Source of the DNA: Aurantiacibacter gangjinensis
Lineage (GTDB): Bacteria; Pseudomonadota; Alphaproteobacteria; Sphingomonadales; Sphingomonadaceae
Length of the DNA: 64,000 nucleotides
Direction: 5' to 3'
Assembly (NCBI RefSeq): GCF_001886695.1
Contig: NZ_CP018097.1
Span: 2,313,001 to 2,377,000, forward strand
In this document: one piece after another, positions 13,137 through 36,318 of the stretch
Layout of the letters: each line of letters opens with the position of its first letter
Numbering within the stretch: position 1 is the stretch's first letter
The notes under the pieces: model-generated
Seen by the model: the letters and a program-made list of their open reading frames with translations, nothing else
What the model was told of the DNA's origin: nothing
Databases searched by the model: none
Translations under genes and position numbers: made by a program

Positions 13137-14810
13137 ATGGCCGCTCAATACGCCTATGTCATGAAGAACATGACCAAGACTTTCCCCGGCGCGCAAAAGC
13201 CCGTGCTGGAGAACATCAACCTGCAATTCTATCGCGGCGCGAAAATCGGCATCGTCGGCCCCAACGGCGCGGGTAAATCCACGCTTATCAAGATCATGGC
13301 GGGCATCGACAGCGACATCACCGGCGAGGCTTGGCCGGGCGAGAACATCACCGTCGGCTATCTAGAACAGGAGCCGGAGCTGGACGAGAGCAAGACCGTG
13401 CTCGAAAATGTGAAGGACGGTGCCCGCGAAACGGCGGACAAGGTGGACGAATACAACGCCATCGCCGCACAGATGGCCGAACCCGACGCCGATTTCGAAG
13501 CGCTGGGCGACCGCATGGCGACCTTGCAGGCGGAGATCGACGCCGTCGATGGCTGGACGCTCGACAACCAGCTGGAAATCGCCATGGAAGCGCTGCGCTG
13601 TCCGCCTTCCGACATGGGCGTGGAGAGCCTTTCTGGCGGTGAGAAGCGCCGCGTCGCCCTCACCCGCCTGCTGATCCAGAAGCCCGACATCCTGCTGCTG
13701 GACGAGCCGACCAACCACCTCGACGCCGAAAGCGTGAAGTGGCTTGAGAATCACCTCAAGGAATATGCCGGCGCCGTGCTGATGATCACCCACGACCGCT
13801 ACTTCCTCGACAATGTGGTGGAATGGATCCTCGAACTGGATCGCGGCTCCTACTATCCGTACGAAGGCAATTACTCGACCTATCTGGAGAAGAAGGCCAA
13901 GCGCCTGGAGCAGGAAAGCCGCGAGGAATCCGGCAAGCAGAAGGCGCTGCAGCGCGAGCTGGAATGGATGCGGCAGACCCCTGCCGCCCGCCAGACCAAG
14001 AGCAAGGCGCGTATCCGCAAGTTCGACCAGTTGCAGGAGGAGATGGGCAACCGCAAGCCGGGCAAGGCGCAGATCGTCATCCAGGTGCCCGAACGCCTCG
14101 GCGGCAAGGTGATCGAGGCCAAGGGCATCACCAAGGCCTATGGCGACAAGCTATTGTTCGAAGACCTTTCCTTCATGCTGCCCCCGGGCGGCATTGTCGG
14201 CGTGATCGGTCCGAACGGCGCGGGTAAATCCACGCTGTTCAAGATCCTCACCGGCAAGGAAACGCCGGACGAAGGCACGGTGGAAATCGGCGAGACGGTT
14301 CACCTCGGCTATGTCGACCAGAGCCGCGACCACCTCGACCCGAAGAACAACGTCTGGGAGGAAATTTCCGACGGGCTCGATTACATGAAGGTCAACGGCC
14401 ACGACGCCAGCACCCGCGCCTATGTGGGCGCGTTCAACTTCAAGGGCGCCGACCAGCAGAAGAATGTCGGCAAGCTGTCGGGCGGTGAACGCAACCGCGT
14501 GCACATGGCCAAGATGCTGAAAGAAGGCGGCAACGTGCTGCTGCTCGACGAACCGACCAACGACCTCGACGTGGAAACCCTGTCGGCACTGGAAGACGCC
14601 ATCGAAAACTTCGCCGGCTGCGCCGTGGTCATTTCGCACGACCGCTTCTTCCTGGATCGGCTGGCGACGCACATCCTCGCCTTCGAGGGCGACAGCCACG
14701 TGGAGTGGTTTGAAGGTAACTTCGAGGCTTACGAGGAAGACAAGCGGCGCCGCCTGGGCGATGCCGCGGATCGGCCGAGCCGGGTGCAGTATAAGAAGCT
14801 GACTAGGTGA
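13137..14810 (+). CDS. ettA: Energy-dependent translational throttle protein EttA (ABC-F ATPase)
   Basis: A 557-residue soluble ABC-F protein with two ATPase domains and no membrane domain. Domain 1 has Walker A 'GPNGAGKST', signature 'LSGGEKRR' and Walker B 'LLLDEPTNHLD'. The linker contains the 'RELEWMRQTPAARQTKSKARI' segment characteristic of EttA. Domain 2 repeats 'GPNGAGKST', 'LSGGERNR' and 'LLLDEPTNDLD'. EttA binds the ribosomal E site and gates the first peptide bond according to ATP/ADP ratio. The length matches the family closely. Its TGA stop overlaps the GTG of the next gene. Confidence 0.96.
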   Translation: MAAQYAYVMKNMTKTFPGAQKPVLENINLQFYRGAKIGIVGPNGAGKSTLIKIMAGIDSDITGEAWPGENITVGYLEQEPELDESKTVLENVKDGARETADKVDEYNAIAAQMAEPDADFEALGDRMATLQAEIDAVDGWTLDNQLEIAMEALRCPPSDMGVESLSGGEKRRVALTRLLIQKPDILLLDEPTNHLDAESVKWLENHLKEYAGAVLMITHDRYFLDNVVEWILELDRGSYYPYEGNYSTYLEKKAKRLEQESREESGKQKALQRELEWMRQTPAARQTKSKARIRKFDQLQEEMGNRKPGKAQIVIQVPERLGGKVIEAKGITKAYGDKLLFEDLSFMLPPGGIVGVIGPNGAGKSTLFKILTGKETPDEGTVEIGETVHLGYVDQSRDHLDPKNNVWEEISDGLDYMKVNGHDASTRAYVGAFNFKGADQQKNVGKLSGGERNRVHMAKMLKEGGNVLLLDEPTNDLDVETLSALEDAIENFAGCAVVISHDRFFLDRLATHILAFEGDSHVEWFEGNFEAYEEDKRRRLGDAADRPSRVQYKKLTR

Positions 14811-15283
14811 GGGACAGATTGGAACAGCAGGCCATCGAAAGATTGAGTCGCCAAAATTCGACTGAGGACATTCGTCGCGTCATGGAAAACGCGCGCGATA
14901 GATCACCGCCAGTTTTCAAAGCCGCGTTTAGAAGGCTGGTTGAAGTGTCTGCTCAAGGTTCTGACGATCCGATCGCGAAAGCTTGTTGGGAGATGGTCCA
15001 TACTGTCGAAGGCGTCCGGAAGGAGTTGGGCCGCCCGGTTTGGCGTATGAATCGGCTTCGTCCGAAGATAGAGAAAGACGGTGAGGTGGCAGCGCTTGAG
15101 TATTGCGCTCGCAACCGGACCGAAGGTTTCGATGAAGTCCTCGAACATGAGCTTGCCGAGTTCACAGCTGAAGCGATTATTCTTCGATTTCCCGAAACCT
15201 TCACCGACAAAAATCTGCGCGAAATCGCCCGAACTAGATTGGTTGAAGCGGGCGTGAATGTCGAGGCCGCGGTGAAAGGCTAA
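14807..15283 (+). CDS. Hypothetical helical protein
   Basis: A 158-residue soluble protein I do not recognise, predicted mostly helical and charged ('EQQAIERLSRQNSTEDIRRVMENARDR', 'EYCARNRTEGFDEVLEHELAEFTAEAIILRFP'). The GTG start overlaps the ettA stop (GTGA), so it may be translated by coupling. By eye its base composition is clearly lower in GC than its neighbours (many AAA, GAA, ATT and TTC codons), which suggests recent acquisition. It is followed at once by a palindromic repeat and a GIY-YIG nuclease gene on the other strand, consistent with a small foreign patch at 14.8-15.7 kb. Confidence 0.65.
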   Translation: MRDRLEQQAIERLSRQNSTEDIRRVMENARDRSPPVFKAAFRRLVEVSAQGSDDPIAKACWEMVHTVEGVRKELGRPVWRMNRLRPKIEKDGEVAALEYCARNRTEGFDEVLEHELAEFTAEAIILRFPETFTDKNLREIARTRLVEAGVNVEAAVKG

Positions 15284-15301
15284 AGTCTCAAAAGAGGTTC
15301 C

Positions 15302-15341
15302 GTCGCCCCGGACTTGATCCGGGGCCAGGCTATTCTTCTGG
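15302..15341 (+). repeat. REP-type palindromic element, family A, left copy at GIY-YIG gene
   Basis: The core CCCCGGActtgaTCCGGGG (15306-15324) is a perfect 7-bp-arm palindrome, preceded by GTCG and followed by a CCAGGCTATTCTTCTGG tail. The tail supplies the last codons (PEE and stop) of the minus-strand GIY-YIG gene. An inverted copy lies at 15655-15696 and a third at 36222. Confidence 0.85.
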
Positions 15342-15632
15342 CGTGTGCCACTCTTCCCACAGGTCACGCCAGTCCGGATTGCTTTCCTCGATCAGCGCGA
15401 ATTTCCATTCTCGGCGCCAGCGCTTGAGGCGCTTCTCGCGCACAATAGCGGTCTCGATGTCCTCGTGGCGCTCGGCATAGACCAGCTGCGTTTTGCCGCT
15501 GTCCGCGACGTGCTGTGATCCCTCGCCATTTCGGTGCTGCAAAATGCGCGCCTGCAAGTCAGACGTCACGCCGACATACATGCCGCCGCGATAGCGGTTT
15601 GCCATGATGTAGACCCAACCACCTTTTGCCAT
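15330..15632 (-). CDS. Single-domain GIY-YIG nuclease
   Basis: A 100-residue protein consisting of little more than a GIY-YIG domain (UvrC-type N-terminal catalytic fold): 'GWVYIMANRYRGGMYVGVTSD' (the GIY and YIG strands), 'LQARILQHR' with the catalytic arginine, and 'ETAIVREKRLKRW' with the metal-binding glutamate. The active site appears intact. It matches the small YhbQ/endonuclease-like group whose role is unclear. The gene is flanked by two inverted copies of the same palindromic repeat. The 3' copy encodes its final residues and the 5' copy ends about 23 bp upstream of the start codon. Confidence 0.9.
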   Translation of the reverse strand: MAKGGWVYIMANRYRGGMYVGVTSDLQARILQHRNGEGSQHVADSGKTQLVYAERHEDIETAIVREKRLKRWRREWKFALIEESNPDWRDLWEEWHTPEE

Positions 15633-15654
15633 CTTCGCGCTGTGGCTCAGGCTT

Positions 15655-15696
15655 GGACGAAAAGAAAGCCTGGGCCCGGATCAAGTCCGGGCTGAC
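15655..15696 (-). repeat. REP-type palindromic element, family A, right copy at GIY-YIG gene
   Basis: The core CCCGGAtcaagTCCGGG (15675-15691) is the reverse complement of the left copy. Read on the minus strand the element begins GTCAGCCCGG and ends with CAGGCTTTCTTT, matching the left copy over most of ~37 bases. Together the two copies enclose the nuclease gene as an inverted pair. Confidence 0.85.
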
Positions 15697-15823
15697 GAAA
15701 TGGCGGGATTTGACTCCCCCCACCCGCATCCCCACCTAGCGCAACAAGGCGCTCGAGACGCGGGCGCGTGTCCCTGTCGGCGCACCTCTCGCGTCGCGAA
15801 CGCGAAATCCCAAAAGGATCAGC

Positions 15824-36213: not shown

Positions 36214-36221
36214 TTGTTTCC

Positions 36222-36306
36222 GTCATCCCGGACTTGATCCGGGATCCCGCTTTCTTCTGTCCCGCCGCGAGAGGAAGCGGGACCCCGGCTCGAAGGCCGG
36301 GGTGAC
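36222..36306. repeat. REPIN-like palindromic doublet, family A
   Basis: The first hairpin TCCCGGActtgaTCCGGGA is the same core as the pair at the GIY-YIG gene, followed by the shared GCTTTCTTCT tail. A second hairpin CCCCGGCtcgaaGGCCGGGG closes the element, with an internal CCCGC/GCGGG pair. The ends are GTCATCCCGG and CCGGGGTGAC, inverted with respect to each other. It lies between the acetolactate-synthase-like and ALDH genes. Confidence 0.9.
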
Positions 36307-36318
36307 GTAAAATGAAAA

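Follow-up and report, generated by a model that had tools for sequence, protein, structure and literature searches.

Introduction
Could a nuclease of 100 residues be the enzyme that spreads a family of bacterial palindromes? The question arises at a locus of Aurantiacibacter gangjinensis, within a stretch of 64,000 nucleotides that was analysed as a whole and is called the window below, where a GIY-YIG nuclease gene lies between two inverted copies of a CGTC-tagged REP. The CGTC-tagged REP superfamily was defined by Di Nocera et al. in 2013 as predominant in alphaproteobacteria and present also in other phyla, and that study describes its repeats as showing no association with transposase genes and as apparently lacking a dedicated transposase (PMC3733652). 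The same study states that RAYT genes go with particular palindrome types where a genome has several (PMC3733652), and alphaproteobacteria have few or no Y1 genes according to another study (PMC6006769). A dedicated nuclease would therefore be a testable answer to the question of the mobiliser that PMC3733652 leaves behind.

Structure of the unit
The preliminary description of this locus, made from the letters alone, had reported an inverted repeat pair around a 100-residue GIY-YIG gene, which is confirmed by the exact positions, the open reading frame and the Pfam score (Table 1). Exact matches to CCGGACTTGATCCGGG occur in the window at 15308 (+), 15675 (-) and 36228 (+). Each arm of the unit runs from a CGTC tag through a palindrome with the core CCGGACTTGATCCGG to CCAGGCT and a T-rich tail, and the tags of both arms face out while the tails face in. 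The left arm has an 8-bp stem with a 5-base loop, and the right arm carries one mismatch at the base of its stem. From tag to tail, the two arms (15301-15337 and 15661-15697) are identical at 31 of 37 positions without gaps, and their best gapped alignment extends over about 40 positions with one gap.

The stop codon of the nuclease gene (15330-15332) indeed falls in the tail of one arm, as had been stated for the 3' copy. As a hallmark of such units this arrangement fails, since it holds for just 28 of 77 loci, some of them having no stop near the gene end, and it was dropped as a defining feature. The third copy that had been placed near 36222 is present and has no nuclease gene; it is not single, however, but forms half of an 87-bp dimer. 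As for the neighbouring gene at 14807-15283, the lower GC content ascribed to it was correct (0.535 against 0.632 for the window), but its membership in a mobile patch lacks support. This gene has 158 codons, overlaps the end of an ABC-transporter gene and gives a sub-threshold match to DUF6424 (22 against 25 bits). A search for RNA families between 14700 and 16300 gave no match up to E 0.1, the NCBIfam search gave sub-threshold matches only, and phage records gave no match at E 1e-10.

Table 1. Features of the REP-flanked nuclease gene and of the related dimer, in window positions
Feature	Positions	Strand	Remarks
Left CGTC-tagged REP palindrome	15301..15325	+	Outer tag, stem GCCCCGGA/TCCGGGGC and CTTGA loop; predicted hairpin
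Left-arm inner tail CAGGCTATTCTT	15326..15337	+	Common to both arms; CTA is the nuclease stop codon
GIY-YIG nuclease gene, 100 aa	15330..15632	-	Pfam match; model pLDDT 87.4
Right-arm inner tail	15661..15672	-	Precedes the gene start
Right CGTC-tagged REP palindrome, inverted	15673..15697	-	Tag reads GACG on the + strand, 15694-15697; predicted hairpin
Whole unit, REP - GIY-YIG gene - REP	15301..15697	.	Two inverted REPs and the gene, 397 bp tag to tag
Gene-less dimer, same repeat family	36221..36307	.	87 bp: same-core REP and inverted REP with centre CCCCGGCTCGAAGGCCGGGG

The nuclease
The window protein is assigned to the GIY-YIG family by Pfam PF01541, with 47.4 bits against a curated cut-off of 22.6, and this is the sole Pfam match within its 100 residues. 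Eight positions do not vary across an alignment of 51 relatives (Y8, G21, R29, E66, K70, R74, K77 and W88), and Y19 and N85 are conserved in at least 90% of these proteins; the conserved Tyr, Arg and Glu (Y8, R29 and E66) presumably have active-site roles. The median dN/dS of 0.15 (range 0.07-0.23; 16 pairs, not all independent) indicates that the nuclease gene is under purifying selection.

The structure model, which is a confident one (Table 1; pTM 0.80), has UPF0213 proteins as its nearest solved structures (profile E 2.8e-14; Foldseek E 0.003) and, weakly, Slx1. The profile search matched PDB 1zg2 and 1ywl, small GIY-YIG proteins of a type that we take to be YhbQ-like. Foldseek returned nothing at E <= 0.001, its best matches being UPF0213 proteins and Slx1, and the fold therefore says little beyond family membership. 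In some records, such genes are annotated as 'hypothetical protein' or, misleadingly, as 'excinuclease ABC subunit C' (L272, L287, H26, H27 and H29).

Could the protein be a domesticated repair enzyme, which trims REP hairpins or cruciforms for its host and whose place between REPs is regulatory? Both the purifying selection and the nearest solved relatives, with UPF0213 proteins first and more weakly Slx1, a branched-DNA nuclease, are compatible with such a role. However, the gene is patchily present, with a match in 105 of the 149 genomes of the family that were searched and from 1 to 16 matches in each, and the similar copies at scattered sites and the sites without the unit that are described below are marks of a mobile unit, not of housekeeping. 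We therefore regard a repair enzyme as quite improbable.

GIY-YIG genes and palindromes in the A. gangjinensis genome
The genome of A. gangjinensis (2.72 Mb in 2 contigs) contains 20 exact copies of the 15-mer CCGGACTTGATCCGG, compared with none of the reversed control. A PF01541 search finds seven GIY-YIG genes in it, two of which are enclosed by four of these 20 copies. On contig C1, dimers of the repeat occur at 107466/107529 and 2459375/2459432. Long inverted palindromes surround each of the six small GIY-YIG genes, with flank scores of 42-69. The seventh, which has a flank score of 21 and no enclosing palindromes, is presumably UvrC-like, judging from its 759-codon frame and its sequence.

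Together, the six enclosed genes use five palindrome types. The CCGGACTTGATCCGG type is found at two of them, the window gene and L029, whose proteins are 57% identical, and the types CCCTGAGCTTGTCGAAGGG, CCTGAACTTGTTTCAGG, CCCCGCGAAGGCGGGG and CGAGCGAAGC are found at one gene each, CCCTGAGCTTGTCGAAGGG being a type without the CGTC tag. Exact copies of CCTGAACTTGTTTCAGG number four in the genome, two of them at its gene, and those with one mismatch number six; the CCCGCGAAGGCGGG type has 10 near copies, of which 2 are at its gene. A search of this genome for a Y1 transposase (PF01797) gave no match. Several REP pairs are heterodimers, their two members differing in loop or stem type (L001, L008, L017 and L018).

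Enrichment of inverted palindromes around small GIY-YIG genes
For a wider comparison, the inverted complementarity of the two 300-bp flanks of each gene was scored, a score of at least 40 counting as a pass, and a second test registered hairpins with a YGTC tag and an 8-bp stem near the gene. The loci comprised 30 as returned by the family search, 60 added ones (40 taken one per genome, with some places omitted, and 20 paralogues from six genomes) and those of the own genome. This left 93 testable loci, namely the 97 from L024 to L120 minus L030 (UvrC-like), L031 (a duplicate of L027) and L033 and L035 (contig edge), a sample that favours relatives similar to the window protein because it was drawn from the best matches listed. 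Control genes were ORFs of 80 aa or more, chosen as the longest that do not overlap one another, and are not curated calls.

The flank test was passed by 77 of the 93 small GIY-YIG loci, compared with 1 of 301 control ORFs from the same stretches, 0 of 180 far control ORFs and none of the 1,119 random windows; median scores were 54 for the genes, 20 for the ORFs and 21 for the windows. The preliminary description had proposed a count of flanking repeats in which GIY-YIG genes are compared with random genes, and by this count the enrichment is evident by a wide margin. A YGTC-tagged hairpin lies within 200 bp of 85 of the 93 loci, versus 83 of 322 control ORFs and 23 of 214 far ORFs, and outward-tagged hairpins on both sides are present at 64 of the 93, versus 5 of 322 and 2 of 214, respectively. 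Of the 16 family loci that score below 40, 14 nonetheless show a tagged hairpin at a distance of no more than 200 bp. Among the 68 two-sided loci, the tags face outward on both sides in 64 and inward on both in 9, some loci being in both counts. The tag-to-tag length of the 64 units has a median of 390.5 bp (range 363-581), and the tails of their 128 arms have the consensus CC[A/C]GCT.

Beyond the family, 249 of 398 genomes of the phylum have a match, with best E values that form a strong group of about 1e-27 and better and a weak group of about 1e-7 to 1e-15, with some in between. Loci outside the family pass the flank test in 14 of 20 testable cases and fail in 6, a 21st lying at a contig edge. 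Named loci, the best 80 of 551 with 7 of the 80 left out at contig edges, pass in 45 of 73 testable cases and fail in 28, versus 4 passes among 185 control ORFs; at least two of them (L205 and L221) seem to come from genomes that are also in the family set. Some of the named loci come from outside the phylum. Passing named records include Colwellia, Rhodanobacter, Methylotenera and Thiomicrorhabdus as well as, for the most part from metagenome bins, Nitrospirota, Chloroflexota, Patescibacteria and Scalindua; failing ones include Nitrosomonas and Methylomonas. Conversely, none of 30 distant GIY-YIG genes, hand-chosen from genomes with one weak match and of a type that we take to be YhbQ/UPF0213, passes the flank test, which indicates that the association with palindromes is confined to one branch of small GIY-YIG proteins.

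Three individual records may be mentioned separately. A metagenome bin labelled Halobacteria (L201) holds a gene with GTCATTCCCGCGCAGGCGGGAATCCAG flanks and a score of 49, which may be due to contamination or transfer. A Neisseria gonorrhoeae record that is filed as a plasmid but has the size of a chromosome (L275, NZ_CP119142.1) contains an unannotated GIY-YIG frame with CGTC-tagged palindromes nearby on both sides, which we assume to be dRS3-like, and a flank score of 106. On a Rhizobium tumorigenes plasmid (L276), a GIY-YIG gene is without inverted flanks (score 15) and has a CCTC-tagged palindrome downstream.

REP hairpins might simply be common 3' elements that happen to border small genes, a reading for which one could cite that most REPs are found 3' of coding regions and that a terminator function has been suggested for them (PMC3733652). 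Such an explanation by chance or termination is rejected on the basis of the control ORFs, the random windows and the distant GIY-YIG genes (0 of 30), with the UvrC-like gene (score 21) adding to these, and we attach next to no probability to it.

Covariation of repeat and nuclease
Among the 77 enclosed loci, the more alike two proteins are, the more alike are their repeats (Mantel r 0.593; largest of 2,000 permutations 0.137), and for 54 of the 77 the nearest protein in another genome has the same repeat, where 8.1 are expected. Within genomes, the same repeat is shared by only 1 of 38 pairs of proteins that are less than 60% identical, this one pair being the window gene (L027) and L029. Repeat type thus appears to follow mostly the protein and not the genome. 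The correlation, which is one among close relatives, shows joint inheritance of gene and REP type, and it fits, without proving it, a recognition of the repeat by the protein.

The number of repeats covaries with the nuclease as well. Over 149 genomes, core number rises with how closely the best match in a genome resembles the window protein (Spearman 0.49, p 2e-10, not corrected for kinship). At least five cores are present in 21 of the 34 genomes with a best E <= 1e-30, in 15 of the 58 in the middle group and in 6 of the 57 with no or a weak match. Put differently, a GIY-YIG relative is present in 38 of the 42 genomes with at least five cores versus 67 of the 107 others, so that 4 of the 42 repeat-rich genomes are without one, and a Y1 transposase is present in 9 of the 42 versus 15 of the 107.

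These data bear on whether the gene is a mere hitchhiker, a passive cargo or trapped host gene amid REPs that are spread by a vanished or foreign transposase or by replication slippage. It could be argued that nuclease action on REPs is deduced from sequence, that REPs also occur near other genes (the 23 of 214 far ORFs within 200 bp mentioned above), and that the similarity past the REPs described in the next section leaves room for larger carriers. Cargo, however, would be expected to vary, yet control genes are almost never enclosed; moreover, the purifying selection and conserved catalytic columns, the tracking of protein by repeat and a host without a Y1 transposase all run against it. 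A hitchhiking gene is, in our estimation, improbable.

Similar copies and sites without the unit
In one genome (G071), five loci at different sites share 94-97% identity over 443-513 bp; in another (G111), four loci, likewise at different sites, share 81-94% identity over 427-541 bp. Their tag-to-tag sizes are 390-391 bp and 371-373 bp, respectively, and the recurrence of units of about 390 bp at several sites supports the minimal element of about 400 bp suggested in the preliminary description. An end of the element exactly at the REP tags is not borne out, as the similarity of the copies extends 0-141 bp past the tags and varies by pair: 0-56 bp upstream and 41-99 bp downstream for G071, and 25-141 bp upstream and 7-97 bp downstream for G111. 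Either there is a target preference, or the ends lie outside the REPs, or some copies stem from a larger duplication. Just outside the REPs of multi-copy loci (L101-L105 and L108-L111) and on plasmid pNL2 (L274) there is a GCGGAC[A/G]T-like motif, possibly a target preference or an outer end.

Sites without the unit were found in relatives. In Azospirillum lipoferum 4B, the gene lies on plasmid AZO_p3 (L277) between sufB and sufC, inside the suf operon, with a full REP dimer on each side, and the same site has neither gene nor REP in all four relatives compared (A. ramasamyi, A. oryzae, Azospirillum sp. B510 and A. thermophilum). For the unit in the window, 40 genomes of the genus were searched, and four others gave a substantial match to the FKBP gene. 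Two of these (L123 and L125) keep ettA and the FKBP gene with unrelated ORFs between them, so that the unit is absent but the site is not clean and the gap looks variable; the other two (L122 and L124) have different neighbours. For G071, a single other genome of the genus, 69% identical at the query, gave no result. The proposed comparison of empty sites therefore yielded relatives without the unit (L123, L125 and the four Azospirillum) but no base-exact empty site, and neither such a site nor a target duplication was seen among the sites compared.

A third case is the gap between fnrL and a response regulator gene on Sphingobium plasmids. REP-gene-REP is present there in TomMM15, TomTYG73, TomTYG46 and TomMM7A, the gene frame being broken in TomTYG73, and the same gap in TomTYG64 and TomTYG74 holds one palindrome that is tagged at both ends, and no gene. 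This palindrome corresponds to the left half of the left REP joined to the right half of the right REP, exactly so in TomTYG64. In TomTYG72 and TomTYG65 the gap has no such REP, and other hairpins instead. The single palindrome would be either the product of a deletion between the two stems or a homing target. In six 50-kb stretches of these plasmids, one REP dimer is missing in TomTYG46 and replaced in TomTYG74, the difference being larger than the dimer, and no insertion junction could be read in them. Double-tagged palindromes as excision scars were also considered, but with 12 in 7 of the 149 family genomes they are too few for a general mechanism. One double-tagged palindrome adjoins a GIY-YIG gene (G019, near L058).

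Homing into REPs is the main rival to a mobile unit that ends at or near its REPs. The REPs would then be the target and not the ends: the nuclease would cut a bare REP or dimer, and repair from a gene-bearing copy would insert the gene between the REP halves. GIY-YIG domains were first found in homing nucleases (PMC1564403), and the double-tagged palindrome that TomTYG64 and TomTYG74 keep where four relatives carry the unit fits such an insertion into a REP. Thus Sphingobium speaks for homing, whereas Azospirillum speaks against it, the site in all four relatives being without a REP. Furthermore, the copies in G071 and G111 are similar outside the REPs, which pure REP-to-REP homing would not give, the tags face outward on both sides at 64 of the 68 two-sided loci against 9 inward, with some in both counts, and double-tagged palindromes are rare, at the above number against 861 cores. 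On this balance we consider homing unlikely, if still worth weighing.

Discussion
In this study, we find from sequence comparison that the gene and its REP type are inherited together, that gene-less REP dimers with similar ends are scattered in the same genome, and that certain genomes carry a number of closely similar copies of the unit whereas related sites are without it. The unit is thus probably a minimal mobile element, with inverted and outward-tagged CGTC REPs at or near its ends and a GIY-YIG nuclease as its sole protein. How might such an element move? The nuclease would first recognise its cognate REP, most likely in the form of a hairpin or cruciform, and would then cut at or near the CGTC tag. 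As DNA hydrolysis by GIY-YIG enzymes involves no covalent bond between protein and DNA, strand rejoining would be left to host repair, unlike in RAYT; host repair, guided by the REP ends, would then finish the move. The gene-less dimers could be non-autonomous derivatives on which the nuclease acts in trans, in the manner proposed for RAYTs and REPINs.

The earlier suggestion that a GIY-YIG nuclease could here play the part of RAYT gains support from the association, the co-inheritance, the copy number and the host without a Y1 transposase, which make the nuclease a strong candidate for the enzyme that spreads CGTC REPs. A bolder reading, for which we see close to an even chance, is that these units represent a class of self-moving elements of about 400 bp, in which one 100-residue GIY-YIG nuclease cuts its own palindromic ends and host repair does the rest. 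This class would be the source of CGTC REP families in alphaproteobacteria and other phyla, each nuclease lineage being matched to palindromes of its own, and would mean that a lifestyle like that of REPs and RAYTs arose a second time from an unrelated enzyme. If so, the element would be among the smallest self-sufficient mobile elements known to us. With its protein of 100 residues and its short palindromic target, it would also make a very simple model of a mobile element. A dedicated nuclease further suggests that two unrelated enzyme families have reached the same genome organisation, and it gives a likely role to genes annotated as 'GIY-YIG nuclease family protein', 'hypothetical protein' or 'excinuclease ABC subunit C'.

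Among the listed matches in open-access journal papers, we found no earlier link between GIY-YIG and REP; no full text in that search combined GIY-YIG and CGTC with the word 'palindromic', and none had GIY-YIG together with both 'MITEs' and 'bacterial genomes'. The accessible text of PMC3733652 does not contain 'GIY', that of PMC1564403, on the GIY-YIG superfamily, contains neither 'palindrom' nor 'extragenic', and those of PMC12306157, PMC5082802 and PMC5896051 make no link to GIY-YIG or a nuclease.

Compared to known systems, the repeats in the window share tag, stem, loop, tail and inverted dimers with the CGTC-tagged REPs, whose marks are a CGTC/TGTC tag beside a stem of 8-9 bp with a short loop and a short unpaired tail that is mostly CCA. 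What appears to be new is not the repeat, which is already known, but its pairing with an unrelated nuclease, and if the nuclease drives the movement, the class would be new outright. The closest parallel is the REP/REPIN-RAYT system (TnpA-REP, REPtrons), which likewise has a small single-gene unit between inverted tagged palindromes and gene-less dimers elsewhere. However, RAYT combines a Y1 HUH transposase with a GTAG tag, whereas the unit in the window combines a GIY-YIG nuclease with a CGTC tag, and this nuclease would have no catalytic tyrosine to hold and rejoin the DNA. GIY-YIG homing endonucleases have the catalytic domain and selfish spread in common with it, but the window gene, at 100 aa and with no further Pfam domain, is surrounded by inverted palindromes and no intron or intein is seen. 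UPF0213/YhbQ-like proteins have the same fold and a similar size, yet the distant-type genes tested are not flanked by REPs. Finally, MITEs and their parent insertion sequences likewise place short inverted ends on gene-bearing and gene-less forms; in contrast to these, no known transposase domain or target duplication is seen for the unit in the window, and its ends are themselves palindromes.
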